In this document: in pieces, positions 12,333-59,376 of the stretch
How positions within the stretch are numbered: the stretch's first letter is position 1
How the letters are laid out: each line of letters starts with the position of its first letter
Source: Plectrocnemia conspersa
Lineage: Eukaryota; Arthropoda; Insecta; Trichoptera; Polycentropodidae
DNA: 64,000 nt
Assembly: GCA_009617715.1 (NCBI GenBank)
Contig: VTFK01000511.1
Coordinates: forward strand, 62,001 to 126,000
Reading direction: 5' to 3'
The notes under the pieces: generated by a model
Told to the model about the DNA's origin: nothing
The model's input: the letters and a program-made list of their open reading frames with translations, nothing else
Databases searched by the model: none
Position numbers and translations under genes: made by a program

Positions 12333-14442
12333 TCACGATCTTTTGTTATCTTCGTTATGTACCAAAATACTATTCACTAAATCGACGTCCACTTCACCTT
12401 TTCCTTGATTTAATATTCTTAATATGTCAACTAGACCTATATCGACAGAGCCACGACCTTTTGTTTTAGTATTATCTTGATTGTGAATTATAAGGTCTTC
12501 AACTAAATCCAAATCTACTTCACCTTTTCCTTGGTTCAATATTGTCAATAGGTCAACTAGATCTATATCGACAGAGCCACGACCTTTTGTTTTAGTATGA
12601 TCTTGATTATGAATTATAAGGTCTTCGACTAAATCCAAATCTACTTCACCTTTTCCTTGGTTCAATATTCTCAATATGTCAACTAGACCAATATCGACAG
12701 AGCCACGACCTTTTGTTTTAGGATTATCTTGATTGTGAATTATAAGGTCTTCAACTAAATCCAAATTTACTTCACCATTACCATGATTCAAAACTGTCAA
12801 TAAGTCAACTAGATCTATATCGACAGAACCACGACCTTTTGTTTTAGTATGATCTTGATTGTGAATTATAAGGTCATCAACTAAATCCAAATCTACTTCA
12901 CCTTTTCCTTGGTTCAATATTCTCAATATGTCAACTAGACCTATATCGACAGAGCCACGACCTTTTGTTTTAGTATTATCTTGATTGTGAATTATAAGGT
13001 CTTCAACTAAATCCAAATCTACTTCACCTTTTCCTTGGTTCAATATTGTCAATAGGTCAACTAGATCTATAACGACAGAGCCACGACCTTTTGTTTTAGT
13101 ATGATCTTGATTATGAATTATAAGGTCTTCGACTAAATCCAAATCTACTTCACCTTTTCCTTGGTTCAATATTCTCAATATGTCAACTAGACCAATATCG
13201 ACAGAGCCACGACCTTTTGTTTTAGTATTATCTTGATTGTGAATTATAAGGTCTTCAACTAAATCCAAATCTACTTCACCTTTTCCTTGGTTCAATATTG
13301 TCAATAGGTCAACTAGATCTATAACGACAGAGCCACGACCTTTTGTTTTAGTATGATCTTGATTATGAATTATAAGGTCTTCGACTAAATCCAAATCTAC
13401 TTCACCTTTTCCTTGGTTCAATATTCTCAATATGTCAACTAGACCAATATCGACAGAGCCACGACCTTTTGTTTTAGTATGATCTTGATTATGAACTATA
13501 AGGTCTTCGACTAAATCCAAATCTACTTCACCTTTTCCTTGGTTCAATACTCTCAATATGTCAACTAGACCAATATCGACAGAGCCACGACCTTTTGTTT
13601 TAGTATGATCTTGATTATGAATTATAAGGTCTTCGACTAAATCCAAATCTACTTCACCTTTTCCTTGGTTCAATACTTTCAATATGTCAACTAGACCAAT
13701 ATCGACAGAGCCACGACCTTTAGTTTTAGTATGATCTTGATTGTGAATTATTAGGTCATCAACTAAGTCCAAATCTACTTCACCTTTTCCTTGGTTCAAT
13801 ACTCTCAATATGTCAACTAGACCTATATCGACAGAGCCACGACCTTGCTTGGCAATTAACAGGTCTTCGCAACCTTTTAGTGGGAATTCTATTTGTAATC
13901 CTTTCAATAAATCATGATTTTTAATGTCTGCTGTGTTTATTAAAGGTTTTGCCTGTAAAAATTAAAATTTATCATTAAACTAATTGTTAAAATAGTTTAA
14001 TCATAAATTAAACTGTTTTAACAATAAACATAAAATACAATATAAAATAAATTTAATTTTATATTGTATTTTATGTTTATAAAATAACATATTTTTTTAT
14101 AATCAATATAAAAAACGTATATAGTAAAAAATTATTATTTTATTTTAATTAATTATTTGCACTATTTTTTACTGATTTATACATGATTGTATAAAAATAC
14201 TCTTTAATGTTTTTTAATTATCAATTATATAAAATATGCTATAAAACATATGGTAATGTTTGACGATATTCAATTATAATTTATGTATTTTTCAAACTGT
14301 TTTGGTAATTTTTTTTAAATTTTATAGTAATGAGTGTAAATAAGTCTAACGGTTTTTTTGTAATAGGCATTAATTATTAATTTATATATTATCTTACCTG
14401 TATGGTGGCCGTAGCCGCAATTAAAAATATCAGAAACTTCAT
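12333..14442 (-). CDS. Secreted acidic protein made of twelve 42-residue repeats
   Basis: Two coding exons: 14,442-14,398 (15 codons, MKFLIFLIAATATIQ) and 13,952-12,333, giving about 554 residues. The donor is CAG|GTAAGA, the acceptor TTTTTACAG, the intron is phase 0. Residues 1-17 form a signal peptide with cleavage likely after Ala 16 or nearby. A short linker with one Cys (LKGCEDLL) follows, then twelve 42-residue repeats to the C terminus. Each repeat has two related halves, GRGSVDIGLVDILRVLNQ and GKGEVDLDLVEDLIIHNQ, plus a DHTKTK spacer; it is acidic with regular Val/Ile/Leu. From repeat 4 on, two repeat types alternate (IGLVDIL with HNQDH, and IDLVDLL with HNQDN), so the latest expansion was of an 84-residue dimer. 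There are no membrane segments beyond the signal. It is the most expanded member of the minus-strand secreted family in this window. The repetitive amphipathic design fits a structural or matrix protein, but I do not recognise a named family. Confidence 0.85.
12336..13844 (-). repeat. 126-bp coding tandem repeat, 12 copies, with 252-bp higher-order period
   Basis: The repeat lies inside exon 2 of the gene at 12,333-14,442. Copies are near identical at the DNA level, which points to recent expansion or homogenisation. Copies 1-3 are of one type; copies 4-12 alternate A/B/A/B, visible as TTGATTATG versus TTGATTGTG and ATTCTCAATATG versus ATTGTCAATAGG differences on the plus strand. Confidence 0.9.
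13983..14080. repeat. Two adjacent inverted repeats in the intron
   Basis: The first has arms 13,983-14,001 and 14,007-14,025 with one mismatch. The second has perfect 25-base arms 14,024-14,048 and 14,056-14,080 around a 7-base loop. Both are AT-rich and lie in the 445-base intron of the repeat-protein gene, so the nascent intron RNA could fold into strong hairpins. Confidence 0.75.
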
Positions 14443-14497
14443 CTTTCCGATTTGATCACGCAACTTTGAATGATGAGAATTTAAGTATTTGAAGTTA

Positions 14498-14505
14498 TAT
14501 TTATA
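14498..14505 (-). promoter_or_regulatory. TATA box of the 42-residue-repeat gene
   Basis: TATAAATA on the minus strand, 56 bases upstream of the ATG at 14,442. The same octamer precedes the next three family genes at similar distance, which supports it as the core promoter. Confidence 0.7.
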
Positions 14506-14509
14506 CCTT

Positions 14510-15275
14510 CAAAAGTATTTTTATGTTATTCATATTTAATAAGATTTTTTTTATTTTTACCGTATTAATTTCAGGGTTTTGTGTATTATAATATAAAAAT
14601 AATGGAAAACGTTTAGGATTTGAAACACGCTTTGTGATATTTTGCAGATTAATATTTTATATTATTAGATTTCTCTGATATCAATATTTATGTATTTGTA
14701 TTTTATATCTATAAAATGATTTTAAAATCATAAAATTTGAATTGAAAAACAACGTTATCGATTCGTTTTGCTTAAATTGTAATATAAAATATTAAAAGTC
14801 GATTAAGTTTATCAATAGAAATTGTATATAAAGGCAAACTTTGTGTAAACATATACAATACTTACCACTTGCAAGAATATGTAGTTCATAATACAAGTAT
14901 ATGTTTAAATTACTAGTTTATATATAAACTAGTAATAAAATTAACAAAAAACAATTTAAAAATATGAATTGTTTTTATTTCATTTACAAACAAATAAAAA
15001 AATAGCACTAAACGTATTATTGACACCCGGTTTATATTATATTAATTCTAATCCGTATTATGTGGTTGATGATTTTAGCATTAAGTCCTAAATGCATCAA
15101 AAGGAAAAGCGGTGGTGACAAAGTACTGCTGATGTATTTTCGGTGTGCCCGGAGCTTTAACCACTTAATTTATATTTTTAATCAACATTTTGACAATACA
15201 AGGATTAAACTAAAAATATAATTTTTAGCATCAAATCATTTTTAAAAATTACTCATCAACGATTCATTAAGACAA
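14510..15275. other. AT-rich intergenic DNA
   Basis: No gene seen. Contains a perfect 28-bp palindrome at 14,909-14,936 (ATTACTAGTTTATA and its complement, no loop). Confidence 0.5.
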
Positions 15276-15279
15276 CTAA

Positions 15280-15516
15280 GAATCGATATTTTTTCACTTT
15301 AATCTTTCAGTCGAAATTTCCGTAATTAATTTAATAAAATAATTTATATATAGGAGTTGCTTGATGATTGCCAGAGTTGAATACCATACATTCAAAATAA
15401 ACAACTATAAATCGATATTTTTCCCCTTCAATTTTCCAGTCGATCTCTCAGTAATCAAATTTTTGGAGTTATCTGGAGTTGCTTGCTGATACCCAAAGTT
15501 GAATACCATACATTAA
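15280..15516. repeat. Two-copy tandem repeat of ~120 bp
   Basis: The blocks 15,280-15,395 and 15,410-15,516 both run from AATCGATATTTTT through CAGTCGA, GGAGTTGCTTG and AGTTGAATACCATACATT. They are non-coding. Confidence 0.6.
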
Positions 15517-15689
15517 AATTGCCTTAGAGATGGATTTGATGATGAGCAGCTTAATATCCACTGTCTTTAGTAGTTTTGCCAGTAGTATTTTCTTAGACTG
15601 GGTTTTAGATGTTTTCTTTTAGTACTAATATGGATTTTCCATGTAATCCTCTGTCATGTCCATTTTTTTGCATCATTTGATTGTGAAAT

Positions 15690-16110
15690 TATTGCGTTAT
15701 ATAATTGGACGGAAGGACACGTTTTCTTTTTTTTGGTAAAGGTCACATCGTCAGACTATTGTTAGTTTGTCCTTATTCTTCAAATATGCAGCCATTCTTG
15801 TATTATGTTTAGATTTTCTTATGATTTTTTCGGATTCTTCTGAGAAGCCATTAAACTATGTCGTCAGCAAATATTGCATAAGAAGTCTAGTTTGTAGTAC
15901 TATTAAATACAAAACTGGCCCTATTAAACTGACCTGAGATACTCCAGATTTTATACGATTGGAGGGTTTTTCGTTTTGATATTTTACTATTAAATATCTA
16001 TCACCAAGGTATGACTTTTTAATTTCATATTTATTATGAGGTAGTGCTTTTATCATACTATATTTTAATCCCACATACCACACTTAGTCAAAAGCTTAAC
16101 TTATATTAAA
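15690..16110 (-). pseudogene. Non-LTR retrotransposon reverse transcriptase fragment (jockey-like)
   Basis: On the minus strand, 16,083-15,900 reads KSYLGDRYLIVKYQNEKPSN and then SGVSQVSLIGPVLYLIV. This matches the 'SYL..R...V......GVPQGSVLGPVLYLIY' core (RT block around the fingers/palm) of jockey-clade LINEs. The frame then breaks; the following sequence in another frame still shows remnants like a catalytic FADD region, the 'NPKKS..NLNIIQEWLHI' helix and 'TFTKKRK'. It is truncated at both ends and inactive. Confidence 0.7.
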
Positions 16111-16974
16111 AAAGCAGCTGAGTAGTATTTCTTCTTATGTAGATTTATAAAAAAATCTCGTTGGAGGATAATTTGAAATATGCCGATAAATATTTGTGAA
16201 CATCTATATCAGGGCTAGAAGTTAAATATCACTGTGTTTCCAAATTAAGCACTGATTTAGAGGACAAACAGAAAAGTCTTACAAGCGCTCTTCTCGGGAA
16301 AATTGTTTGAATGATTTTTAAAACATGCGGATATACACGTTCGCGAGGAAATTATTGCACACACTATTGTTTTAAGAATCCGCGAAGAGTAAGTGTTTTT
16401 ATGCAACGTTTTAAAACAATACTTAAATATGCGAATGACATGGCAGCAAAAATTTAAATATATTCACAAATAAAAAAGTTATATTTCATACAATAAAATA
16501 ATAGCTTAATGGTTCACCGTTTTATTAGTTTTTTGTATGTATAGTACAAAAATAATATATTCAGTGAATTATTCATATTTTACAATTTAAATCAAGTTTA
16601 TTACTTTAAATTTATGTCATTATTATTCTACAAAATGATTTGATTTTACAATGACAATGTTTTATTAGCTTATAAATAAAAAATATATAAACATATAAAT
16701 ACAAATAAACATTAGTTTAGCAAAGATGATTTAACAAATGTAGAGCATTGTTATAACTATTTTTTCATCCGAAACACATATAATTGTATGATAGTTATGC
16801 TTACAAATTAGCCTAATTTTAACTTTAAAATATATTTATTGTTATTAAAGAAAAAATCAAGTAGAATGAAGAAAAAACATATTTTATTTTTTTTAATGCA
16901 ATAAAAACCTTATTTTTATTTTTTAATTTATTTTTTTGCGGAAAATGTAAAATATCACTTTCTTACTTATTTTG

Positions 16975-17020
<46 letters not shown>

Positions 17021-17440
17021 ATAAACTCAAAAACATGAAAGCAATTTTGGAATCACTTTTCAGGTTGAATATCTGCTTAATATAATATTTAAAAAAATAC
17101 CAATAGAATATTACAGGAATTGTTTTATTGATTACAAAATAACACATGTTAATAATTTATAATAAAAATATAACACATTATAATTTTTAATTCAATATCA
17201 CACTACCCTTAAAACAGCCCTGATTTAGTATTGGTAACGTTCTTCTATCGGTGTAAGCAAATTCGCGGAAAACTGTATATGTATGCATTCATGCGTATAC
17301 GCACCCTTATTTTCAACACACTATGATGAGCGTTAGCATCTTGGATGGACTATACTTACCTTCATTTGCGACCCAAGAATTAAACACCACCGGTGCAAGT
17401 TGAGATATTGAGAAATAAAGTAAAACTGATTAACTGTTTT
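16110..17440. other. AT-rich intergenic DNA with a short (TA)n
   Basis: No coding evidence. A (TA)n microsatellite occupies about 16,979-17,020. A less AT-rich stretch at 17,215-17,400 has no open frame of note. Confidence 0.5.
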
Positions 17441-17445
17441 AAGAT

Positions 17446-17477
17446 TTTATTATATTAAACTACAGTTACAATTTATT
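17446..17477 (-). terminator. Poly(A) signals of the mucin-like gene
   Basis: Two AATAAA hexamers on the minus strand, at 17,477-17,472 and 17,451-17,446, lie 5 and 31 bases after the stop codon at 17,482. The second is better placed. Confidence 0.45.
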
Positions 17478-17481
17478 GTTA

Positions 17482-19965
17482 TTAATCAACGTTTCTGATT
17501 TCTGTGCAGCTGAAGTGTTCTATAATGATACGTGTGCCACCGTAATGATCACAGCTTGATTCGTCAGTAGTTTCTTCTTCAGAGGTTAATTTATCATTTC
17601 CATCAGTCCTGTCATCAGTAGAATGCCGTTTAGTATTGTATTCATCAGTACTGCTATCAGTAGAACACCCTTCGGTTGTAGATTCATTATTTTCATCAGT
17701 ACTGCTTTCGGTGGTTCCAGACGCATCAGTTGTGGATTCATTTGCTTCATCGGTACTACTTTCGGTTGTTTCAGACGCGTCAGTTGTGGACTCATTATTT
17801 CCATTGGTGCTGCTTTCATCAGTGCTGCTTTCAGTAGAACACCCTTCGGTTGTGGATTCATTTGCTTCATCGGTACTACTTTCGGTGGTTCCAGACGCAT
17901 CAGTTGTGGATTCATTTGTTTCATCGGTACTACTTTCGGTAGTTTCAGACGCGTCAGTTGTGGACTCATTAATTTCATTGGTGCTGCTTTCAGTAGAACA
18001 CCCTTCGGTTGTGGATTCAATATTTTCATCAGTACTGCTTTCGGTAGTTCCAGGCGTATCAGGTTTGAATGTAATATGTCCATCAGTAGTAGTTGGGCTG
18101 ATTGGTGTAGTTGTTGGCTGACGGTGATGGTGATGACGGTTTTGATTGTAAATAAGAGTATTTAAGACATGGCCTATTCCGACTGAACCACGCCCACTTG
18201 GTATTGCATCACCACGACTAAGAGGGCTGGCCTAAATACACAATAAATCGATTAAATTTTTTTTCGTAAATTTAATATTATTTGAATTGGTGAAGTTAGT
18301 GAATAAAAAAATTCAAAAAAATAAAAAAAAATTATCGAAAAAATGAAATAATTATTTTATGTTATTTTTAACACTCTCAACTGATCGGTTGTTCGCATAG
18401 CAAGAGTAATTACAAGTGTACGTATCATATATTATTAACCCTAAATGGTTTTGCTTGTGTTCTTTAAAAAGTAAGTTTTCAGAAAATTATTATATTAACC
18501 TTTCTCATGCTATGAGCCACTTACGGGGCTCAGTCGATTCTTGACTATTTAAATTTATAAAGTAATCTATAAATAAACGTTAAATATATAAAATAATCTA
18601 TAAAGAATCGTTGCAACTTAAATGGCTGAAATTAATGTGCTTCTTGTCAATTACGTACTACGAAAAATTACTTATTTGATGATTAGATAGATCTCAATAA
18701 TCTATTTCTTATATTCATATTTTTTTATTTATAGTAAAAATGAAAAGAGTGATATATTTTAATAACACAAGTTTAAGCACAATTTTTTAACACGAAAAAG
18801 AATATGTCGATTAATGAAAAAAATTTACATAAAGCAGATTATGATACATATCCTAACGATATTAATTCTAATGAATTATCATCAGAAATAATTAGATGCA
18901 AAAATCAGGCAATCGCATTTATTTTTGACAGCTACAAGTTTGGATATATTATTATATATTAAAAATGATGCATGAATACAATTTAATATAGTTATATCCG
19001 AATTTGGACATTGCGTGAAGGATAATTTTAACGGGCGCGTACGGTGAGAAACATTCCCTTTCGCTCACTCGCGTGTGAGTGAGAGATAAGGGTGTGCGTT
19101 ACATGCGTTCCGCGTGCCTTCTTCTTCTCACTTACTCTCGTCACTTACAGCACGCGATCGAGCAAAAGGAAATGTATCTCACCGTACGCGTCTGATTATT
19201 TTAATACTACCTGTCACTGTAGCCTTTTTAAAAACAGATTCAGTACATTGAATTTAGAAAAACCTATTTACCGTACTTTGCTCAGGAAAATTATCAATAT
19301 GGCAATTTTATCGATTGAACATAATTTTACAAAACATATTGATTTTAATAATATAATTGATGAATTTTATTTAACAAAAGCACAAAAAATATTTTTTAAA
19401 GGTAAAGATTAAAGAATATTATTTTGTTTCTGATTTAATATTTTCTAAGCATGTGAGCTTAAGTCACTGAAATTTTGTAAATTAAATTACTGCAAATTTT
19501 GTGATATTTTAACTAATTTTATGTGATGATCTTAAATATGTTTTAATGCTTTCTTTTGTTAAACAAAATAATTTTAAAAATATTTTAAATAATTTTTTTT
19601 AAACAAAATAATTTAAAAAATAATATTTATTTCATTTTTTCAACGTTGGATTTATTTTATTTTTATTAACTATTGTTCTATAACTGTGTCCTATGGCTTA
19701 TTGCTTCTAAATTTATGATTTTTTTCTTAATATTATACTAATTGAAAGTAAAAAAGCAACTAAGGGCAATAATTTTTTTTTTGCCTCAGGTAGCAAAATG
19801 TCTAGTCCCGGCCCTGCTCTATTGTTATACAAAGCAAATATATTATGTATATTAATATATTTCTCAAAGACCTATCTTTAACTTTTTTTACCGACATTGC
19901 AAAACAAATAAAACTCTTACCGAAGCCGTCACAGCAATGAAGAAGAAAACAAATAAGTACTTCAT
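17482..19965 (-). CDS. Secreted Ser/Thr/Glu-rich mucin-like protein
   Basis: Two coding exons: 19,965-19,921 (15 codons, MKYLFVFFFIAVTAS) and 18,231-17,482, giving about 264 residues. The donor is TCG|GTAAGAG and the acceptor TGTATTTAG; the phase-0 intron of 1,689 bases holds a hAT remnant. Signal cleavage is likely after ASA (residue 16). The mature N terminus carries the family module GRGSVGIGHVLNTLIYNQN, then a His/Arg patch (NRHHHHR), a TTTPISPTTT stretch, and about seven ~17-18-residue repeats of the type ESTTDASGTTESSTDE. These come as a period-three series (EGC, ASE, ASG versions); the EGC version has one Cys. The C-terminal 60 residues are not repetitive and end in SCTEIRNVD. Dense Ser/Thr suggests heavy O-glycosylation, as in mucins or sericin-like glues, but that is inference. 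The open frames on the opposite strand are products of the repeats. Confidence 0.85.
17640..18060 (-). repeat. ~54-bp coding repeats with a three-unit higher-order pattern
   Basis: The tract inside exon 2 of the mucin-like gene repeats ESTT[DE]-[AG]-[SC]... about seven times, in the order EGC, ASE, ASG, EGC (extended), ASE, ASG, EGC. The ~160-bp trimer has itself been duplicated. Confidence 0.75.
18800..19816 (+). mobile_element. hAT element remnant (ZMYM1-like), 5'-truncated, in the intron of the mucin-like gene
   Basis: Plus-strand frames show DYDTYPNDINSNELSSEI near 18,840 and, after an inserted MITE, ILPVTVA near 19,200 and MAILSIEHNFTKHIDFNNII then DEF near 19,300-19,370. These are in the order expected of the hAT catalytic/dimerisation part of ZMYM1-like transposases. 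The 3' end is marked by ...CTAGTCCCGGCCCTG ending at 19,816, whose complement begins CAGGGCCGG, a familiar hAT terminus that also appears at 63,822. The 5' end is not visible and the frame is broken. Confidence 0.65.
19030..19194. mobile_element. 165-bp hAT-like MITE
   Basis: Inverted ends (19,036-19,066 and 19,160-19,190) share CGCGTACGGTGAGA...CATT...CC. The flanks ATAATTTT and ATTATTTT look like an 8-bp target duplication with one mismatch. The internal CTTTCGCTCACTCG and GAGTGAGAGATAAG blocks also occur in the MITE at 31,997-32,141, so the two belong to one family. It sits inside the older hAT remnant. Confidence 0.65.
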
Positions 19966-20012
19966 GTTAATGTATTTACTGCGAATAAGTACCGATCGTA
20001 AGTCTTCGAACA

Positions 20013-20020
20013 TATTTATA
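20013..20020 (-). promoter_or_regulatory. TATA box of the mucin-like gene
   Basis: TATAAATA on the minus strand, 48 bases upstream of the ATG at 19,965, in the same position as in the neighbouring family genes. Confidence 0.7.
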
Positions 20021-20029
20021 GTGTTTTAG

Positions 20030-21110
20030 GTACTACGTATTATAAACTTTGTACCAATTAATCGATTATAAACGGACTTAAGGCGTGATATCCAAATCGA
20101 ATTGTGCAGTGCTGGATTGGATAATCGTTTATATAGCTTTAAGATCACAAATTTTATTATCAGATGTATCTATTTCATACTGCAGCTAAAAAAATTAAAG
20201 ATGTCATTATAATTCTCAGATTGGCTATTGTAATATTAGCATAACTTGTACTAAAAATCATAATTCAAAAATGTATTCTCAAATAATATATTAGATATAG
20301 GTACAATTTAAAGCGATATAAAATACAGTTGATCTAGCAAAATCAAATCGAAAACGATACTGCAAAAAATCTGCTTTGGAGATGATATGATAGAGGTGAT
20401 GACCCCAACGGCGGAAGTCGAAACGTCATGAAGAGACTTAGAGACTAACATAAATGAAAGACTCGTGCTTTAATTAAAATTAATTATTATGATTTTAATT
20501 TTACATATATTCAAATATTATAGATTTGTGTAAAAATCGTATAATATATGATGCAATATTTATATTTTATAACACAATATTAAATGTATACGAATTTAAT
20601 GTTCTGTGTGATTATATTATATTATAATTATGTACGCTATTTTTATGTAGCTAATGTATATTGACAATTTTGAGCTTAAAAATAAATATTTATTAAAAAC
20701 CTCATTGTATTGTACACCTAATTCGTTACAATGAGGTGAACTACTAAGAAGGTAGTGAAATCAGACTCAAATCAAAATCTGTCAATTAAAAAAATATTCT
20801 TTATTAATTATACATAGTTTTAATAGATTATCATCAATATGTCGCTATGTATGTTCTAGCACAATTTTATTTTGAATATTTGTGAGATTAGGAAAATTTT
20901 GGAAAACCTAATCCATTATGATGGCTCGGAATTAAAACTATATAATAATTTAAAAAAAATTACTTGAGAATATATTCTTATATTGTACTGGTTTAGTAAT
21001 TGAAAACGTATGTTTGGTTAATTTGTAAAATTATATAAAAATAAAATAAAAATCTGAAATATTTTGTTCAAAAATCGCTACGCAAGAGCGTGTTTTATGG
21101 CAAAAAACTA
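20030..21110. other. AT-rich intergenic DNA with an old dispersed repeat
   Basis: No gene. The block 20,840-20,945 (TGTGAGATTAGGAAAA... then AACCTAATCC) weakly resembles the repeat copies at 38.1 kb and 63.7 kb. Confidence 0.4.
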
Positions 21111-21124
21111 AATAGTAATGTGTA

Positions 21125-21665
21125 TATATGTATGTCGCAGTGAATGTGTATTACCAGTGTCACTAATTTCAATATGTTGTCTGCCTTGTGTTTCTTTTTC
21201 TTCTTTTTCTAAGATCTACAGAAAAGATTCCCAACTTTAATTAGTGTACGAGCTACTTTTAAAGTTAAAATTATATGTTGAGCTTCTTGTTACAGAAAAG
21301 TGGTAAAAAAAAAAAAAAAACAACAGTAAAAAAAATGTTTTTCTATATAAAAAATTTAGATTTTTAAATATTTAAATATTATAAAAATACAAAAACAAAT
21401 TTACAAGAAAATATGTTAAATATGTATAATACATGTACAACTATAAAAAATGAAACTATTGTTAGTTTTAATACTTTTATTAGGCAAGGTTGCGTTTGGT
21501 TGACTGGTTAAGGTTCCTAATAATATATTAGTTAAATTATATTTTAGATAGTAAAAATATATATCTACTTGTGAAAATGTAATTGGTATGATTTTGGTAA
21601 AACGCCAGTGAAAATATTACTTCACTGGTAATACATATTTACTGTAACATGTATAATAAATCAGT
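21125..21665. repeat. Inverted-repeat-bounded segment related to a dispersed repeat
   Basis: CAGTGAATGTGTATTACCAG at about 21,138 is the reverse complement of the block at 21,622 (CACTGGTAATACATATTTAC). The right-hand block, with its upstream AAAACGCCAGT, recurs in the same orientation at 31,570-31,620. This could be a short non-autonomous transposon with degraded ends. Confidence 0.4.
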
Positions 21666-21955
21666 ATAATAAAAATATACTGAGTTTATAGAGATCTTAT
21701 TAAAAAAAATATATTCCATAATTATAATATATATAACTAAAAAATTAGATATGTATCAAATATATTATAATCAATCATACACTTTTTTTTTATTTTAATT
21801 AAAAAAATTATATTTCTTGTAACTTTACCTAAAATCACTTAAATGTGAAATATATTTTCTTAATTTAATTTATTACCTTAAATCTATACATAAAAAATAT
21901 ATTATATTAAGAAATATTAATTCATTGTCTTAAAATTTTATATTAAATTCGGCAT

Positions 21956-21961
21956 TTTATT
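21956..21961 (-). terminator. Poly(A) signal of the Ser/Asn-rich gene
   Basis: AATAAA on the minus strand 66 bases after the stop codon at 22,027. Confidence 0.5.
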
Positions 21962-22026
21962 AGCTGTTAAAATTTGTTTGTCGAGGTGGACCAAACAGCC
22001 TGCAAGATTTTCTTATACAACTTTTT

Positions 22027-23176
<1,150 letters not shown>

Positions 23177-23208: not shown

Positions 23209-23216
23209 TATTTATA
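23209..23216 (-). promoter_or_regulatory. TATA box of the Ser/Asn-rich gene
   Basis: TATAAATA on the minus strand only 33 bases upstream of the ATG at 23,176, implying a very short 5' leader. Confidence 0.65.
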
Positions 23217-25836: not shown

Positions 25837-27000
25837 TTACATTTCTTGTAAATGGGTTGGATCAATAACATCATCGGTAGTGGTTTCACAAACGTCATTT
25901 TGAATATGACCTAAACCTCCTGTATTTTTGGTGGTAGCCGGATCGACATCGCAAGTATCTTCGTTGTGGATGGTTGCTAGATCTGCTCGGTCAATGGTAA
26001 CGGAACCACGACCATGCTTACCCGTTACGGTACCTTCTCCTTCTGTGCAAGTGTCGACTTCTTGATCTTGGTTACATATAATAGATTCTAAAGCATGATC
26101 TACATGTACGCTCCTTGTGTGAGGATGCGAATTGGCCTGAAAGCATAATTAACTAATTAAAACAAATTGTATAAATACCTTTACAATGCGTACCATTTAT
26201 CAAAAAAAAAATTATTGCTTAATCAAAAAGTCCATGTAGTTTAAAGAAAGATAAACTTAAACATTTTTGCATTAAAACTACTCTAATGGTAGAAGGTTAA
26301 GATTTTTTCTGTATTTCTTCAAACAAACAAAAAATCCACTATCTAATCCTCAATAAAACTAATATATCTTACGAGTCATCACAAATAATATTATTTAAGA
26401 AACGATAAAGAAGTTATTATAAACTGCTTTAAAGAACGACTTTTAATATACACTACTGAAATAATACAACTATTCTTACATTACAAGAAGTTCACAGTCG
26501 ATTAAAAATGTCTTATCTACAGGATAGATTCAGCATTATTAACAAATCAGTATTGCCTACTAGTAACACTAAGAAAACATGGAGTAAAAAAAGTGTAACT
26601 ATACAAAACAATTTTAAGACTATGTGTATATCTCATTTAAATCTAGAGTAAAGTTAAAAATCTTATAATGAAATAATGTAAATATTTACTTAAAAAAAAT
26701 TTATACAAAATACTGCCCATGGTTATTGACAATTAAATTATCATGTTAAAACGGTAAGAGGAGTGATAAAAGTCAATAACATATGTACAATTTGGGGTGG
26801 TATTTGAATGAGGCGGCAAACCTCTAGAGTGAGGTGCAAATTATTACTCTTAATAGGTCCAGCGATTTTCTAATCAGTAAAACCGCATAATAAAATTTAA
26901 TTAAAAAATAAATTTTAATTAAATTTTATTTTGAAAATGATTTACATATGCTTACCAAAGCCAAGACAGCAAAGACGAAGTAGATTGCTAGGTACTTCAT
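25837..27000 (-). CDS. Small secreted acidic protein with the GRGSV module and four cysteines
   Basis: Two coding exons: 27,000-26,956 (15 codons, MKYLAIYFVFAVLAL) and 26,136-25,837, giving about 114 residues. The donor is TTG|GTAAGC, the acceptor GCTTTCAG, the 819-base intron is phase 0. Signal cleavage is likely after ALA (residue 16). The mature protein holds two copies of the family module: a diverged one (TRSVHVDHALESIICNQD) and a clear one (GRGSVTIDRADLATIHNED), joined by a Cys/Glu/Thr linker (EVDTCTEGEGTVTGKH). A Thr/Asp-rich tail ends DPTHLQEM. The four cysteines of the mature part could form two disulphides. It is the simplest member that links the module to a non-repetitive protein. 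Function unknown. Confidence 0.8.
26889..26930. repeat. Perfect 18-bp inverted repeat in the intron of the Cys-containing gene
   Basis: Arms AATAAAATTTAATTAAAA (26,889-26,906) and its exact complement (26,913-26,930) around a 6-base loop, close to the donor of exon 1. Confidence 0.8.
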
Positions 27001-27047: not shown

Positions 27048-27055
27048 TATTTATA
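27048..27055 (-). promoter_or_regulatory. TATA box of the Cys-containing acidic gene
   Basis: TATAAATA on the minus strand 48 bases upstream of the ATG at 27,000. A TGACGTCA-like sequence (ATGACGTCAAT) lies about 20 bases further upstream and may be a CRE/AP-1-type site. Confidence 0.65.
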
Positions 27056-51100: not shown

Positions 51101-51880
51101 CCACCAAAAACACGGTTGATAAATTTAGTGAGATGGCATTATATTTATATACGAATGTATATGATCATTTCTAGCGAATATTAAATTCTGTACTAGAGTT
51201 TGTGAAAATATTTGTGTAGAAAATTGTGTTTTATTGTGTATTATAAAATCTGATATAATAGCTAATAATAATAAATTATTATCAATATATCAATATTCAT
51301 TTTTAACAAAATCGATCTCTTAAAAAATATAAATTATATTTATATTCTTAGAGTTACTAAATTATTAAAGCATTACAGGAATTTATAAGAAAAAGATTAT
51401 CTGAAATTATCACAAGCTTTTAAATACTAACAATATTAACTTATGAAATCTTTAATCGAAAATAAGTTACGCAGTTTAAATTTAAAAATGATTACGAGCC
51501 TATCGCGTTGTCTTTACAATCTTATTACGAAAATCAATTATAACTTTGTGTCGGTCAAAAAAATGCTATTGTCTTGACACAAGTGTAAAACATTGTTTAG
51601 TTGTATTGATGTTTTGATAACATCAAATAATATTTATGGTTTTCATAAATCTTCTGTTCTAATAGTACGGTTTCTCTTAAGTTCGAGTCGTAATATAAGA
51701 TGAGATTGAAATTTCGACAATTTTTCATTCGAAGATCATTTTCTAAATGCGTCGTTTCTTTTGATAATTCTATCTTGTGATGAAAATGTCATTAACGTTT
51801 GCTCTTCTTAAGGCTATATACTAAAATGTCTGCGTAAACAGTGGCGCAAATAAAAAAGTGTGTCTTTAATTTAGTAGTGC

Positions 51881-51886
51881 TTTATT
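51881..51886 (-). terminator. Poly(A) signal of the first Asp/Ser/Asn-rich paralogue
   Basis: AATAAA on the minus strand about 100 bases past the stop; conserved in unit B at 58,192-58,197. Confidence 0.55.
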
Positions 51887-51986
51887 GATTCCCAAAAAGT
51901 AAATAAAAATAAAATAAAGCTCTCATTAATAAATCGTTACTCATGTAAGGTGATTTCAGTCCTTCTTCACATAGGTGATCTGATTA

Positions 51987-52990
51987 TTAGTTATGTAAAA
52001 AGTTAATAATCAAACCATCACCAGTAGTTTCAGTAATTCCCGGTAAACTTCTCATTTCATGTGGAATTAAAATTCTGCCTTTAACCCCAATTGGAATTTC
52101 CGTAAGTTGTACTTCGTCATTATCGTTGTTATCTTGGTCATTACTGTCTTCACTAATGTTATTGCTGTCACTGTTGTCACCGCGTTTAATTTTATGGTTC
52201 AATGTATCATCAGTAGTGCAATCGCAGGTATCGTCTGTTGTTTCATCTATATCAACTTTACCGTGTCCTCTCGGTCTGTCAGGTTGAGCATTCTAATACC
52301 AAACAAATAACCCAAACGTTATTTTCAAATATTAAGTTAAAACTATCGATATATGAAAAATAAATCTAAATTTAAATTAATTTGATCAAAACTGCTTTAA
52401 AATATAAATTCACAGGAAACGATTAACTTATATGTACTAATTAACTTTTGTGTGATCATATTTGCCTCCTCACCAATATTTTATACGAAAAATTACATAA
52501 TTTAATGGTGTTAAAAATTACTTTTACTTAAATTATCAATATTATAATATGTTTAGTGGTAACTGTAGCAAAAGCAAATATTTTTTTGGATCACTACAAT
52601 AAAGTAATCAAATTTTTTTGCATGAATTGTCAAGATTGGAAAAAACGCATCTCATGATTTAAATTATGACTCTTGTGAATTGTATTAAATTCAGAAGATA
52701 ATGTATTATAGTGATATTTAAACAAATGTTTATTTAAAAATATAAAATTATATACTTAATATTAGAAATAAAATAAATATGGATGGGATAATATTACATG
52801 AGATTGTGGCTTTACCCTTAAACCGAATTATTCGAGGTTTAATTTCTTTTAAATTCCTTAAAGATTGGAGTGAACCATATATCTTAAAAAAGTTGAATAT
52901 TCAATGACATCTAATATATTATTTATTTTTTAAACTTACACAAGCGCAGATGACTACAGCAAGAAACAGATACACGAATAAGTACCTCAT
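51987..52990 (-). CDS. Small secreted Asp/Asn-rich protein, paralogue A
   Basis: Two coding exons: 52,990-52,940 (17 codons, MRYLFVYLFLAVVICAC) and 52,292-51,987, giving about 118 residues. The donor is TGT|GTAAGT, the acceptor TGGTATTAG, the 647-base intron is phase 0. Signal cleavage is likely after CNA (residue 19). The mature part starts QPDRPRGHGKVDIDETTDD, where GHGKVDID is a variant of the cluster's GRGSV module. A Cys-containing segment (TCDCTTDD), a basic KIKR site and an Asp/Asn/Ser-rich stretch (SNDQDNNDNDE) follow. The C terminus is non-repetitive (PIGVKGRILIPHEM and on). KIKR might be a processing site. It pairs with the paralogue in unit B, whose C terminus differs. Confidence 0.8.
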
Positions 52991-53038
52991 TTTGCAGTTG
53001 GTTTTGTAAAACTTATATTTTTTAAAGAAAAACCATCG

Positions 53039-53046
53039 TATATATA
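53039..53046 (-). promoter_or_regulatory. TATA box of paralogue A
   Basis: TATATATA (context AGTATATATACG) on the minus strand, 49 bases upstream of the ATG at 52,990; identical in the paralogue. Confidence 0.6.
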
Positions 53047-53585
53047 CTTTATTGAAGATATGGTTGGTCACGTTTTCATATATAATTATATCATAAATAT
53101 TTATAATTTGCATTTGTTATTTGATATAAGGTATTTTATATCAATATTTACGACTTGCAATTTTTGTGTCTAATATATTTTATTTTGTATCGCTTCACAT
53201 AACAAACTGTTATTGTGAATTATAGTCAGCTAGTAAGAATAAATAAATAAAAAGAATAAAGTAAGGTTTGTAGAATTAAATTAAATTTAGCACTTATGCA
53301 TAAGGATAAATTTAGTTTTATTGAAAAAATAATAAATAAAGTTATTTTACCACAGGCAACAATAAAACATATTTGTATAACACTAGTTGTCGGTACCTCA
53401 CTATCGCGAATAGAGTCTCCAATTACTCGAACCATCAACTACTCGAGTATCGAATATTAAAATTTTAAAATACTCGAGTACTTGAGTACTTTCGAGTATT
53501 TACCAAATGTACCAAAATAGCTATTATTCAAATTCGTGCACATATATATAAATAAATAAAATACTTTGTATGTTAATTTTTACAA

Positions 53586-53819
53586 TTATTTTAACTTCAA
53601 GAACATACTTTTTAAAAACAATAATGTAAAATGTGTCTCGAATTTAATATTACTGCGAACCTTTGGTTTTATTATTCCCGTTGTAGAAAAAACCCTTTCC
53701 GTTGCTGTTGATGTTGGTCTTATTGTCATTAACGCGTTGGATAAGGCTTCTAATTTATCTGTTCGCTTTTTATAGATATAACATTTTTTGAACTCTCTTT
53801 TTATGTTCTCTTCTTTCAT
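53586..53819 (-). pseudogene. hAT transposase C-terminal dimerisation fragment (outer element)
   Basis: Residues around PTSTATERVFSTTG match the hallmark 'P.TS...ERVFS..G' of the hAT dimerisation domain, followed by KVRSN and a LLFLKS segment. No N-terminal or DDE-like part remains. Confidence 0.75.
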
Positions 53820-53998
53820 TCCCTTCTCTGCTTTTCTCTTATTTCCTTCGACTGTTGATAAAATAGCATTTTGTAATTCTTCTTGAATAGATTTTTTTTC
53901 TTAACAATATACAATCTTCTAATCCTTCTGATTAATGCGAAAAATTTAAATCTATATCCTTCGAAGATGTATTTGGGTGAATCCCTTTCACTCTAGAG

Positions 53999-56380
53999 CA
54001 GTGGTTCTTAACCGGTGCACCGCGAACTCATTGCAAGTGCACCGCGAGAAAATTGGTAAAAACAAAAAATCCGCAAAATAGTAAAATCTTAATGTTTCAA
54101 TCAATTTGTATTTTATTATAGTCGTGATACCCCACAATGGATAAATTTATTACCAAACGAAATTGTGAATCAAACCAAAACATTAATGACCAAAATATTA
54201 ATGACACTGGGAGTACAAGTGGAAGAAGTAGTGACGATGTTACTAGACATCATACGTCTCATACAAAAGAAAATATATCCAGTAAAATAAAAAAAAAAAA
54301 TGGACAGTATTCTGAAGAATATTTACGTTTCAGTTTTACTAGCATCAATGAGGAAGGATATCACATTCCACTATGTGTTGTATGTGGAAAAAACTGTCCA
54401 ATAGCGCGATGTATACTGACAAGTTAAATCGCCACTTCACTACAAAGCACGCCGATCTTGCATCAAAAAGTAAAGATTACTTCAAAAGATTGTTAAGCAT
54501 GCACAATAAACAAGCGAAATATTTTGAAAAAACTGTTAAAATTTCCAATAAGGCACTACTGGCGTCATAAAAAATTTCTGAATTGATTGCTGTACAATTA
54601 AAACCACATACCATAGCAGAGTCTCTAATTTAACCTGCATATTGTAAAATAGGAAAAATTATGTTTGGTGATGAAGCAAAAAGGAAATAATGAAAATTCC
54701 TCTTTCAAACGATACAATAAAAAAAATAATTAAATATGTCGGATGATACTAAGAAAACAGTTAACGATAAACTTTTCAAGCGATTTTGTTTTACAAGTCG
54801 ACGAATCTACTGACATTAGCGGTAAGGCACAAATACTAGGATTCGTTCGTTTCATAAATGAAAACAAAATAATGAATCAATATCTATGCTGCAAAGAACT
54901 TACCGAGCATACGACAGGACAAGATGTTTTTGATCTTATTTATTCATATTTAAAACAATTTAAAATATCATTGGAGTTATGTGTAGGAATTTGTATGGAT
55001 GGTGCTCCTTCAATGGTAGGCTCATTTAAAGGATTTTTTTAACCCTTGCAAAGACAGGAAAACCTAATATTAAATCTACGCACTGTTTTATACATAGAGA
55101 ATCTTTAGTTTCGAAAACATTACCAGCAGCACTAAAACCTGTACTAGATCAAGTTGTAAATATAGTGAATTTCATAAAATCAACACGCATGCTTAAAAAA
55201 CTTTACATTTCTATGGAAGCTATGTACGAGTGTTTGCTTTTTCACACTGAAGTCAGGTGGTTATCTAAGGGTAAAGTTTTATGCCGATTCATAGAACTTA
55301 AGAATGAATTGGTAATCTTTTTTTCGAAATGAAGGTATGGATGACTTTGTAAAATGTCTTCAGAATAATGATTGGTATGCTAAAGTGGCATATTTAGCAG
55401 ATATTTTTATTTACTTAAATAACGTTAACACAAGCATTCAAGGAAAAAACGAAAAACTCATGACATCCATTGACAAATTGACAGGACTTCGAAAAAAAAA
55501 AATAACTCTTTCGAAAAATCGAATAATAGAAAAAAAAGTAGACATGTTTCCTTCACTTAACGAAAACATTCCCAAGGGAGTTATTTCCGCAATAATAGAA
55601 CATTTAACTTTATTGGAAGAAAAGATTGCACATTTTCATTCTTAAATATAGAAAATTATGACTGGATACGAAATCATCAATTTAGTCTCATTGTCGACTG
55701 ATCGTACTCTAAAAATTAAATTTTCCGAAATAACTATGAAGAATTTTTGGATTATTGTCCAAGAGGAATATTCACTTCTTTACATGAAGGCATTGAAAAT
55801 TTTGTTACAGTTTTCAACATCATATTTGTGTGAGCTTGGTTTCTCAACAACAACTAATATGAAAACTAAAAAAACGAGAAAGACAGAAAAAAATTTAAAC
55901 GAAGAATTCAGGGTAACTACATAAAATATTCGACCTAATATTTCTGATATCTGCAAAAGCCAACAAGCTCGGGTATCACATTAATTAATTTTTGATCAAT
56001 CATATAAATTCCATTATGTTAAGCAGGAACGTCATTTTGGGTAAACAAAAGGGGGAAAATGCACCACTTAGATTTGCCACCCAAAGAGCACCTTTAAATA
56101 TTAATACAAATATTTTTAATAATACACGTAATTAAAAATTGGTTCTAGGGCAAACTTAACTAACCAAATTTATTTTCAATACTTAACTTTTTTATATAAT
56201 TTAATTTAAAAAAATATGTAAAAAAATTGTATGTAATTTTGTATGTAACTATTATTTTTTTTTAAATATGTAATAAAAATTATGTCCACATATTTTTTTC
56301 GACCTTTTAATTCTGGTGCACCGCCACTTTTTCCCATGATCAAAAGTGCACCGTGACTTTGAAAAGGTTAAGAACCACTG
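53999..56380 (+). mobile_element. Inner hAT element (SCAND3/ZBED5-like), 2,382 bp
   Basis: The terminal inverted repeats CAGTGGTTCTTAACC and GGTTAAGAACCACTG and a perfect 8-bp target duplication CTCTAGAG (53,991-53,998 and 56,381-56,388) define it exactly. Subterminal GTGCACCG motifs occur at both ends. It contains one decayed transposase gene on the plus strand and lies within the outer hAT. Confidence 0.95.
54137..55924 (+). pseudogene. Inner hAT transposase (BED zinc finger, SCAND3/ZBED5-like), disrupted
   Basis: An almost full-length coding order is readable in pieces. There is an ATG at 54,137, then a zinc-finger region with a frameshift near 54,400 (CVVC...HFTTKH), stops near 54,570-54,690, and the catalytic region 54,743-55,042 with FVLQVDESTDISGKAQI and CVGICMDGAPSMVGS (acidic residues typical of the hAT core). 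It ends at a stop after KGFF but continues in another frame with HCFIHRESLVSKTLPAALK and EVRWLSKGKVL. The last parts are 55,337-55,645 and 55,658-55,924, the latter with the dimerisation-like STSYLCELGFSTTTNMKTKK. At least four disruptions make it inactive; the missing parts are small, suggesting moderate age. Confidence 0.85.
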
Positions 56381-56388
56381 CTCTAGAG

Positions 56389-56905
56389 CTTTAAATGCCT
56401 TTAAATGCCTTTAAAACTTTAAATGCCTTTAAAACACACAATTGTTTTGATTTATATTTTAAGCTGAGGGATCAGTATAAACAATTTACAACACTTTACG
56501 CTACAACTGCATAGTCATAAAACCTAATTTTTTTTTTGATATTTCATATTGTTCATTGCCATAAATTAGGTAAGTCGGGACTGTCGGACAGAAAACACAA
56601 AAGAAATTTCTCCGTCGTACCCACTAACATAGCCGACGACCGGAACTATGCAACTATGGAACTATGAAAAAATTATACCTGATAGTAACCGCTCTAACTT
56701 GGGACTTCGGGCATAAACGCCAAATAAAAGCAAGACGTTAACCTTTACCGGACCGAGTTAAAGTTAATTTTGTTTCTGAAATATCTCAATTTTTTTTAAT
56801 TTCGAGTATTAATCGAGTAATTTTCAAAATACTCGATTATCAAGTACTTGAAAAATAGACAAGTATACTCGAGTATCGAGTACTCGATTACTCGAATTGG
56901 AGACT
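56389..56905. other. Right arm of the outer hAT
   Basis: After the inner element's target duplication, short TTTAAATGCC repeats (to about 56,435) and then non-coding DNA lead to a terminal ATC/CTCGAGTA-rich inverted region near 56,800-56,900 that mirrors 53,430-53,500. Confidence 0.6.
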
Positions 56906-56916
56906 CTAATCGCGAA

Positions 56917-58025
56917 GTACCGCAGCTAGTGTGTGCGCGTAATTACCAGACCCATAACTTTTTGGGTTTTATATTTTATTTTTGTTTCGTTCCTTTTTAA
57001 AATTATATGTTTTTAGTATATTCCTGCTACTATTATATATTAAAACTATATTAAAATTATTCTCAACATGGTGAATTATAAATGAGATAAAAGACAATTA
57101 TTACATATTTTTATTTCTGCATATTTACCGGTTAGGTTAGTTCAGATAATTATTTAAGTCTCGTATTTTTGGGGGTTAGAATTTATATTAAATTGTCAAA
57201 ATAGATTGGTCAGAATGTAAGTGACCAAAATAAACATTACATGGTCAGAATCTATATTAAATAGTAAGAATTATTTGACTGTTTGTTGAAAATCCGAATA
57301 ACAAAAATAAAACATAACACTAATAAAATATTTTTTTTATTCTACTTATTAGAATATTTTAATAATACAGAACATTTTCTCCCAAATTAATTTATGTACA
57401 CAAGGTTACAAAATTTTTAATTTTTGTTATATCTATTTTTATAAAAAAATTTATTAATTTTCATTTAATTCAATTTATTTACGTATTTTATCAATTTATT
57501 ATTTCCTAAGATTTTTTAAAATGAGTTTTCAAACTCTTCTTAAAAAAATAACTTTTATGTTATTTTTTGATAGGCTGTCATTTTAAGATAAGTATTTTTA
57601 TTGTCAGCGCAAAAAAATGATATTGCAAATCAGATTAAATATCTGTTAAAGGGTTACCTTCGACAACTTTAAAACACTATTAAGCCCGTATATATGTATA
57701 AGAAAATAATAAAGAGCCTGTTTTTGCCATGGATTATTGCATTATATAAGACTTTGAATTAAAAAATAATCACATGCCCCGTCAGGAACCGCAGTATCAT
57801 AGTGTATTGGGTTCGCAAATAAAGTATGTAATTTGAATTACTATAATACTTAAAACAAAAATTAATACCTTAATAATTTATTAAACTATTTAGTATAAAA
57901 TCACCAAAATGATCGTTTCGGCTAAATAATATTGTTTGTAAAAATATTTGTTTTGGAAATTGTGTGTTATACAATCTTGTGTTTCAATCTCTTTATTTTT
58001 TATTTTTATTTTTAGTACATATAAG
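56917..58025. other. Unit A flank, non-coding
   Basis: Duplicated in unit B in two parts (60,430-60,800 and 62,980-63,690). Has several copies of a GGTCAGAAT/ATTCTGACC motif. No gene. Confidence 0.5.
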
Positions 58026-58191
58026 ACGTTCTCTATGAGCTGTGTATAAAACGAGCGAAAATGAAATTTTGACAGTCTTTTCTTATGATGATTCGATCTT
58101 GTGATAAAAATATCATTGTCGTTTGCTCTTATTAAGGTTATATACTAAAACATTGGCGCAAATAAAAAATGTGGCTATAATTTAGCAGTGC

Positions 58192-58197
58192 TTTATT
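58192..58197 (-). terminator. Poly(A) signal of the second Asp/Ser-rich paralogue
   Basis: AATAAA on the minus strand about 130 bases past the stop; conserved in unit A. Confidence 0.55.
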
Positions 58198-58328
58198 GAT
58201 TCCAAAAAAATAAATCAAAATAAAATAAAACTCTCATTGATAAACCGTTACTCATGATAGGTGATTTCAGTACTTCTTCACATAAGTGATTTGATTATAG
58301 TTAAGGTCTGCATGCACTTTCAGTAGGA

Positions 58329-59376
58329 TTAGCGTCCAGTTCTTATCGTAAGAACTTCGTCGCCATTATCGTCGCAGATATCGTCGCCGTTATCACGGTC
58401 ACGGACATTACTGTCTTCACTACTGTTACTGCTGTCACTGCTTTCACTGCTGGAACTGCTGTCCCTGCGTTCTACTGTAACGTTCACTGTATCATCAGTA
58501 GTGCAACCGCAGCAATCATCTGTTGTTTCATCTACATCAACTTTACCGTGTCCTCTCGGTCTGTCAGGTTGAGCATTCTAATACCAAATAAATAACCCAA
58601 ACGTTATTTTCAAATATTAAGTTAAAACTATCGATATATGTAAAATAAATCTAAATTTATATTTATTTTAGCAAAAAAGCATTAAAATATAAATTCACAG
58701 CAAACGATTAACTTATATGTACTAATAAACTTTTGTGCCTCCTCATCAATAAACTTTTGTGTGATCATATTTGCCTCCTCACCAATATTTTATACGAGAA
58801 ATTACATAATTTAATGGTGTTAAATAATGACTTATACTTAAATTATAAATATTATAATCAAAATTTTTTGCAAGAATTGCCAAGAAAGGAAAAGCTGCAA
58901 CTTATGATTTAAATTATGACTTTTGTGAATTATATTAAATTGGGAAAATAATGTTTTATAGTGATATTTAAACACGTGATTATTTGAAGATATAAATTTC
59001 CATAATTAAAATTAGAAATAAAGATAAAATTATAGTAAAATAAATATGGATGAGATAATGTTACATGAGATTGTGGCTTTACCCTTTAACCGAATTATTT
59101 GATTTAATTTCGTTTAAATTCCTTAAAGTAAGGAGGGAACCATATTTAAAAAAAATATTAAATATTAAATAATAAATGACATCTAATTTATTATTTATTT
59201 TTCAAATTTACACAAGCTCAAATGACTACGGCAAAAAACAAAAATACAACTAATAATTAATAAATAAGCTATACTTCTTAAGTAAAACATAAAAAAAAAT
59301 ATAATATAAATATTGTTCAACTTACACAAGCGCAGATGGCTAGGGCAAGAAACAGATACACGAATAAGTACCTCAT
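58329..59376 (-). CDS. Small secreted Asp/Ser-rich protein, paralogue B
   Basis: Two coding exons: 59,376-59,326 (17 codons, MRYLFVYLFLALAICAC) and 58,577-58,329, giving about 99 residues. The donor is TGT|GTAAGT, the acceptor TATTAG, the 748-base intron is phase 0. After the signal (cleavage likely after CNA), the mature protein starts QPDRPRGHGKVDVDETTDD as in paralogue A and has a CCGC pair-rich segment. A Ser run (DSSSSSESSDSSNSSED) and a short end (GDEVLTIRTGR) follow. The C-terminal ~35 residues of paralogue A are replaced because of a deletion and frame change. The intron holds a decayed second copy of exon 1. Ser/Asp runs could be phosphorylated or bind cations, but this is speculation. 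Confidence 0.8.
59205..59262 (-). pseudogene. Duplicated, decayed exon 1 in the intron of paralogue B
   Basis: The minus strand reads like the signal-peptide exon (LVVFLFFAVVI, stop, AC) and keeps the donor-side ACTTGTGTAAAT context, but has an in-frame TGA where Cys stands in the intact exon and has lost its ATG. It is a tandem duplicate of the exon at 59,376-59,326 (or of paralogue A's exon) that decayed. Confidence 0.75.

Follow-up and report, generated by a model that had tools for sequence, protein, structure and literature searches.

Do neighbouring genes that share one architecture, and encode secreted proteins of very different size, belong to a single family, and by which steps did they diverge? 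This question is raised by a stretch of 64,000 nucleotides from the caddisfly Plectrocnemia conspersa (assembly GCA_009617715.1, contig VTFK01000511.1, positions 62,001 to 126,000 of the forward strand), referred to here as the window, in which a cluster of six genes for fast-diverging secreted proteins had been predicted. The contig (C531, with the window at C531:62001-126000) comprises 263 kb of a 393-Mb genome. Genes G1 to G6 are located in the window and genes G7 to G13 outside the window on the same contig. The reading followed here, which together with the mechanism described below we would give an even chance of being correct, is that 13 genes for secreted proteins form a single family which arose by tandem duplication.

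Gene architecture and chance control

All six window genes were re-derived from the sequence on the minus strand at their predicted positions (Table 1), and the shared anatomy ascribed to them was recovered in each case. Exon 1 comprises 15 codons in G1 to G4 and 17 codons in G5 and G6, and begins with MKF, MKY, or MRY, as the original prediction had it; a GTAAG donor follows it in phase 0. The TATA box starts 40-63 bases upstream of the ATG, or 32-55 bases if measured from the end of the 8-base box; the prediction had given 33-56 bases. Introns of 445-1689 bases with an AG acceptor are followed by one open exon encoding mature parts of 539, 249, 75, 99, 101, and 82 amino acids in G1 to G6, respectively, which matches the predicted range from 75 residues to a 12-fold repeat of more than 500. 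The phase-0 junction is situated at most two residues from a plausible -3/-1 signal-cleavage site (a rule of thumb, not SignalP) in all six genes, likewise as predicted. In case of G1, exon 2 opens with 36 residues, and the remainder is an array of 12 units of 42 amino acids, of which the last is short and ends in the stop codon. The count of 12 was read from the sequence; TRF reports a period of 126, 11.7 copies, and 93% matches.

The predicted extent of the cluster, six genes on one strand, proved too small. Scanning C531 for the architecture revealed 13 genes over approximately 85 kb, 11 on the minus strand and two on the plus strand. Under strict settings the whole 263-kb contig yields these 13 genes, compared to none in the reversed contig and none in each of 20 Markov-1 resamples, and under looser settings 16, compared to one in the reversed contig and a mean of 0.8 (maximum 3) in the resamples. 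Several acceptors of G7 to G13 were picked by eye and do not always give the longest open frame. Judged from these gene models, the 13 genes are probably spliced between the called exons, and strong expression in one secretory tissue as well as export via the classical pathway would be expected.

G11 (C531:152089-149939) possesses two candidate second exons, both located after TTTCTTTTACATG[GT]TAAG, which may represent either alternative splicing or decay. The gene counts rely on exon b, and the table of compositions does not include exon a.

Relatedness of the genes

A promoter profile of all 13 genes is built from the very genes it finds and was replaced by an outside-gene profile, leave-one-out profiles, and a chance control. 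The DNA profile of promoter and exon 1 built only from G7 to G13 found G6, G5, G4, and G2 (4 out of 6 window genes) and, within the intron of G6, an incomplete further copy, with no match in the reversed window at E up to 10. Leave-one-out profiles, in which close paralogs were kept, recovered 11 of the 13 genes with no off-family match.

A second tie is provided by the mature proteins. A 19-residue protein motif (GRG motif) was learned from six stretches of G9 to G13 and scored against 2000 shuffles per protein. For G1, G2, and G4, none of the 2000 shuffles reached the score. Of the two candidate second exons of G11, only the farther one carries the motif, and exon a does not (1151 of 2000 shuffles reach its score). 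The only remnant of the motif kept in G5, G6, and G7 is GHGKVD[IV]D. Furthermore, exon 2 of G4 matches the G11 exon (tblastn, 4.6e-5).

Taken at the sequence level, G1 appears to be tied to the family by the mature motif, G5 and G6 by the shell of promoter and exon 1, and G2 and G4 by both. The upstream regions of G3 and G4 match with a blastn E of 7.6e-8, but as this match is AT-rich the tie of G3 is weak. Most of the 13 genes thus seem to form one family beyond the common architecture, with G3 as its weakest member. A separate and unrelated family for each gene is not borne out, as promoter and exon-1 DNA is homologous for most genes and G1, G2, and G4 in addition share the protein motif with outside genes. 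The predicted shared shell with variable mature parts stands, but architecture alone does not describe it, since most members are also homologous.

Genome-wide matches were located exclusively on C531 for promoter and exon 1 of G6 (4 out of 4) and for exon 2 of G5 (3 out of 3), G9 (4 out of 4), and G4 (2 out of 2). The DNA pattern of the GRG motif occurs 14 times in the genome, 12 times in G1, once in G4, and once on contig C932. This last match falls mid-way in a gene with many exons that looks HERC2-like, and is regarded as a probable chance match. As far as the searches with parts of G4, G5, G6, and G9 reach, all copies detected so far appear to sit at one locus.

Divergence of promoter, signal exon, and mature exon

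Segment identities were computed for 13 gene pairs, with unrelated AT-rich DNA giving a background of 45-59%. In 12 pairs the identity of exon 1 is higher than that of exon 2; the promoter exceeds exon 2 in 9 pairs and the intron does so in 7 (several near background). Promoter, exon 1, and intron all exceed exon 2 well above background only in G5/G6, with aligned identities of 93, 94, and 90%, respectively, 86% for the 3' segment and 75% for exon 2; counting gaps, the identities of promoter, exon 1, intron, 3' segment, and exon 2 amount to 93, 94, 65, 63, and 51%. In case of G12/G13, promoter, exon 1, intron, and exon 2 show 91, 96, 79, and 88% identity (exon 2 61% with gaps), and in case of G7/G8 exon 1 reaches 96%, the promoter 82%, exon 2 64%, and the intron 54%. 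G6 and G7 are a recent pair with 99% identity in exon 2 and 89% in the promoter, and their units match over 1.68 kb at 88%.

In the proposed mechanism, the unit would consist of TATA promoter, signal-peptide exon, intron, and one mature-protein exon, and duplication would copy this unit entirely. Afterwards, promoter and signal exon (in G5/G6 also the intron) would remain most alike, and the mature exon would change by substitution, insertions and deletions, and internal repeat amplification, as in the 12-fold array of G1 and the Thr/Ser repeats of G2. The partial exon-1-like stretch in the G6 intron may be read as a relic of unequal exchange. For families with a conserved shell and diverging cargo, it is rare that neighbouring relatives represent every stage of decay. 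Since the present row holds near-identical (G6/G7), half-diverged (G5/G6, G12/G13), and motif-only or promoter-only members, the steps of divergence can be put in order.

The predicted description as fast-diverging holds in part: exon 1 is indeed more alike than exon 2 in all but one pair, but the ratios of nonsynonymous to synonymous substitutions (dN/dS, NG86), a crude pairwise test, give no proof of positive selection. The ratios are 0.58 for G5/G6, 0.75 for G5/G7, 0.67 for G7/G8, 1.07 for G12/G13, and 0.61 for G9/G10, and undefined for G6/G7 (dS 0). With values of 0.58-1.07 in 5 of 6 pairs, weak constraint is therefore indicated and not proven positive selection.

Several observations weigh against one family with this mode of divergence. 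G1 and G3 were missed by the leave-one-out profiles and by the profile of G7 to G13, and the full motif is not significant in G3, G5, G6, G7, and G8 (reached by 83, 152, 883, 831, and 625 of 2000 shuffles, respectively). For G1/G4, promoter and exon 1 are no more alike than exon 2, all at background level. In 6 of 13 pairs, namely G6/G7, G7/G8, G6/G8, G5/G8, G10/G11, and G12/G13, the introns are less alike than exon 2, and much of the remaining intron likeness lies within the 47-59% that unrelated AT-rich sequences show. Intron conservation is not general across pairs.

A more far-reaching view, which we regard as unlikely, would see the locus as a factory for new secreted proteins, with the shell being copied along the chromosome, the mature exon rewritten, and genes born inside a fixed shell. 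Rewriting would proceed by repeat amplification, insertions and deletions, and possibly exon replacement in G3, and proteins as different as Ser/Asp-rich ones and a 12-fold repeat would be exported under one regulatory programme.

Protein properties and database searches

Including the signal peptide, the proteins measure 8.4-60.7 kDa, and 11 of the 13 fall between 8 and 20 kDa. With G11 taken as exon b, 11 of 13 mature parts have isoelectric points of 4.1-5.7, except for the basic G12 and G13 (9.2 and 10.0). By grand average of hydropathy, 11 of the 13 complete proteins are hydrophilic. In most of them Asp, Ser, Thr, Gly, or Leu lead the composition, several cysteines occur in some proteins, and G2 contains 20.8% Thr and 16.3% Ser.

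No named family had been recognised in the original prediction, and the searches bear this out. When 12 proteins (all except G7; G1 with 4 of its 12 units) were scanned against Pfam, no match passed the cut-off. Rows below cut-off were judged to be chance, among them DUF2303 (E 2.9e-4) and DUF6115 (E 0.011) in G1, IMUP (E 0.018) and New_glue (E 0.14) in G6, and DUF188 (E 0.04) in G12. The protein-database search, which depends on short exact words and similar length, yielded five candidates for G4, none at E 10. With an eight-row alignment (G9, G10, G11b, G12, G13, G4, the first 77 residues of G2, and G5), none of 7986 scored candidates reached E 1. An L-fibroin family search gave one match above cut-off, on contig C178, and none in 14 control genomes. 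The joined exons on C178 encode 215 amino acids, 100% identical to the fibroin light chain of P. conspersa; the next matches are from Stenopsyche, Hydropsyche, and Arctopsyche with 49-52% identity, along with an unnamed protein with 48%. By this measure the DNA comes from this net-spinning species or from a very near relative. The protein database therefore contains some caddisfly proteins, which lends a little weight to the empty family searches.

A role as immune effectors or antimicrobial peptides, made in fat body or haemocytes, would accord with the genes being mostly small, secreted, and clustered, carrying TATA promoters, and in part encoding several cysteines. Most antimicrobial peptides are cationic, however, and only G12 and G13 are basic; nor is an antimicrobial family present among the Pfam rows of the 12 proteins scanned. 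We consider this explanation improbable. No TIL row occurred in Pfam among the scanned proteins either, and the combination of 12-17% Cys with EGF2/TIL domains that marks Zonadhesin-like (TIL/EGF2) silk proteins was not observed. Scanning C531 for at least 8 Cys in 55 amino acids returned four segments, two of which lie antisense to G6 and G7 and two overlap each other at 178 kb.

Half-units of approximately 21 residues with NQ-G-x-G-x-V spacing in G1 recall curli, so that the mature repeats might fold as curli-like stacked beta hairpins of a functional amyloid glue. AlphaFold models of the first five G1 repeats (predicted local distance difference test, pLDDT, 38; short helices) and of G13 (pLDDT 53) contain no strands, although models this poor neither prove nor exclude the fold. 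Two sequence searches of the PDB each returned a single weak row (E 0.49 and 0.018); neither row is curli, and both were judged to be chance. An amyloid of this kind is very improbable. An EF-hand or dockerin reading of GxGxV was dismissed, as the spacing did not fit in a by-eye alignment.

Comparison with caddisfly silk genes

For P. conspersa, 27 silk genes are listed (PMC9432349, Table 2); 44 detected proteins without predicted signal peptide fall outside this comparison. None of the 13 genes fits any of the 27 in size, exon number, and leading amino acids together, as compared by description and not by sequence. Nearest in size are G9 to PN20 and G2 to SGA28, with differing amino acids.

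The pseudofibroins (Pfibs) of the same species (43-135 kDa, 32-44% Ala, silk-gland specific; PMC9432349) resemble the cluster in having two exons, the first of which is short and encodes part of the signal peptide, although here the exons are gene models only. Also shared are a partly repetitive second exon and the adjacency of some genes. In contrast to the Pfibs, none of the 13 genes has Ala as one of its three most frequent residues. In Limnephilus lunatus, the cadhesins (Caz) are clustered, heterogeneous, Ser/Ala/Thr-led, and mostly two-exon genes with a short signal-peptide exon (18-222 kDa), and the small multicopy peptides (SMP) are clustered, Tyr- or Gly-led, and 3-8 kDa in size (PMC11092239). 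Clustered, heterogeneous two-exon secreted genes are common to Caz and the present locus, where G2 is Thr/Ser-rich but the family as a whole is not. Unlike the SMPs, the proteins here are 8.4 kDa or larger and none is Tyr-led; G10 is Gly-led but of 16 kDa. In the passages of PMC11092239 compared, a GRGxV motif is not mentioned for Caz or SMP, and the likeness is one of description, not of sequence.

It is thus conceivable that the cluster is the Plectrocnemia counterpart of these cadhesins and SMPs, with its products in the thread itself. Two-exon, clustered, heterogeneous genes, one of them Thr/Ser-rich and others small, fit the Caz/SMP clusters, and since the Limnephilus authors report a single SMP-reminiscent peptide in P. 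conspersa (PMC11092239), a counterpart could have been overlooked. This is nevertheless unlikely: besides the lack of fit to the 27 listed genes (PMC9432349), cadhesins (18-222 kDa) and Pfibs (43-135 kDa) are Ser/Ala/Thr-led or Ala-led, 11 of the 13 proteins here have 8-20 kDa, 11 mature parts are acidic, and in none does Tyr rank among the first three residues.

The original prediction likened the genes to fast-evolving silk glue, mucin, salivary, seminal, or defence proteins. Regarding function, we tentatively prefer a soluble or stage-specific product of the silk gland which would coat or condition the thread and not be a main component of the larval net silk, although we hold it to be somewhat less probable than its negation. 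A glandular secretion is favoured because the same architecture serves silk glands in the caddisflies studied (Pfibs; Limnephilus Caz), and a main silk component is disfavoured since none of the genes fits the larval list. Polymers that serve as adhesive or barrier might form from the mature parts, which are acidic, rich in Ser/Asp or Thr, or equipped with Cys, by way of phosphorylation, glycosylation, or disulfide links. What speaks against a silk-gland product is that same lack of fit, together with G1, predicted to yield 25 tryptic peptides of 7-35 amino acids (12 distinct); given that number, G1 would be hard to miss in silk if abundant. Five POU sites (reached by 13 of 200 random sets) and 46 forkhead sites (1 of 200) were counted upstream of the genes. 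As the promoters are related by descent, these counts are no evidence of silk-gland control.

Proteins of seminal fluid and egg cement are typically locally confined, diverging, secreted, and tandemly duplicated. In this respect the present genes match reproductive secretions, namely egg-mass cement or seminal fluid proteins, and their absence from a larval silk list would agree with an adult gland. In one literature search on caddisfly egg masses and accessory glands, on the other hand, the abstract openings listed describe no such protein, and we regard a reproductive role as unlikely, too.

The predicted secreted proteins of the cluster fit no entry of the silk list published for the same species, as judged by size, exons, and composition. 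At stake is whether an equivalent of the SMPs known from case-makers exists in retreat-making caddisflies.

Comparison with other secreted-protein clusters

In mode of evolution, the nearest match appears to be SSSGP-1 of the Hessian fly, a salivary gland secreted-protein cluster of 7 genes in 15 kb (PMC2955719). Both clusters are tandem and include inverted genes (two on the plus strand here), and both pair a diverged mature region with a promoter and signal-peptide exon that stay more alike, here in 9 and 12 of 13 pairs, respectively; in both, an intron is situated at or in the signal-peptide region and no relative was found in other species, here as far as Pfam and the searches with G4 and the eight-row alignment reach. 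They differ in that the present cluster comprises 13 genes over approximately 85 kb in a caddisfly instead of a plant-feeding midge, that introns are clearly conserved in no more than some of the pairs, and that several mature exons still share a motif, again by description and not by sequence. The KQY cassette effectors of the pea aphid (PMC7495047) also have a conserved signal-peptide coding region and a divergent remainder, which there consists of miniature exons and here of a single mature exon. In a thin literature search no account of the present cluster was recognised. We regard it as a new, locally confined secreted-protein family of an already known sort, set apart from the listed silk genes by description.

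Table 1. Positions of the cluster genes. G1 to G6 are numbered by window position, G7 to G13 by position on contig C531; exon 2 includes the stop codon.
Gene	Feature	Position	Strand	Remarks
G1	TATA box (TATAAATA)	14498..14505	-	starts 63 bases before ATG
G1	Exon 1, 15 codons MKFLIFLIAATATIQ, then GTAAG	14398..14442	-	missed by leave-one-out profile
G1	Exon 2	12333..13952	-	mature part 539 amino acids
G1	Tandem array, 12 x 42-residue unit GRGSVDIGLVDILRxLNQGKGEVDLDLVEDLIIHNQDxTKTK	12333..13844	-	126 bp each
G2	TATA box	20013..20020	-	
G2	Exon 1, 15 codons MKYLFVFFFIAVTAS	19921..19965	-	outside-gene profile E 1.1e-5
G2	Exon 2	17482..18231	-	mature part 249 amino acids, Thr/Ser-rich repeats; GRG motif 18195-18139
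G3	TATA box	23209..23216	-	
G3	Exon 1, 15 codons	23132..23176	-	upstream blastn to G4 E 7.6e-8; missed by leave-one-out profile
G3	Exon 2	22027..22254	-	mature part 75 amino acids; without GRG motif
G4	TATA box	27048..27055	-	
G4	Exon 1, 15 codons MKYLAIYFVFAVLAL	26956..27000	-	profile E 7.1e-6
G4	Exon 2	25837..26136	-	mature part 99 amino acids; GRG motif 26013-25957
G5	TATA box	53039..53046	-	
G5	Exon 1, 17 codons MRYLFVYLFLAVVICAC	52940..52990	-	profile E 5.3e-30
G5	Exon 2	51987..52292	-	mature part 101 amino acids; motif only as short GHGKVDID form
G6	TATA box	59425..59432	-	
G6	Exon 1, 17 codons MRYLFVYLFLALAICAC	59326..59376	-	profile E 2.2e-34
G6	Partial second exon-1-like stretch in intron	59207..59250	-	profile E 4.1e-4
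G6	Exon 2	58329..58577	-	mature part 82 amino acids, Ser/Asp-rich
G7	Gene outside window	128113	-	
G8	Gene outside window	133144	-	
G9	Gene outside window	137216	-	
G10	Gene outside window	145219	-	
G11	Gene outside window	152089	-	
G12	Gene outside window	155215	+	
G13	Gene outside window	159049	+	

Neighbouring features

Between G5 and G6, hAT-like transposon pieces with broken frames are located at window positions 53586-53900 (minus strand) and 54128-55924 (plus strand); their matches to Dimer_Tnp_hAT (E 5.6e-4) and DUF4371 (E 2.3e-5) are both below the Pfam cut-off. A 100-residue open frame at 9872-10174 (plus strand) lies in an AT-rich region and has no Pfam match at E 0.01.

A tandem near-duplicate of approximately 640 bases, 88-98% identical in pieces, occupies positions 5030-5640 and 5746-6230. 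After each copy comes a GC-rich block whose end reads GACAAG before GTAATGTCTTT; the arrangement looks like duplicated alternative first exons of a gene. Positions 3959-4094 and 4881-4982 hold the arms of an inverted repeat (54 nucleotides at 85% plus 42 nucleotides at 98%) approximately 0.8-0.9 kb apart, possibly a fold-back element.

Outside the window, immunoglobulin (Ig)-domain exons are situated on the minus strand of C531 at 183-209 kb (I-set E 1.6e-6 in one, Ig_2 E 0.0069 in another), and a chitinase-like piece of glycoside hydrolase family 18 (GH18, E 2.7e-8) lies between them on the opposite, plus strand at 202.9 kb. These conserved genes may help in comparisons of synteny.

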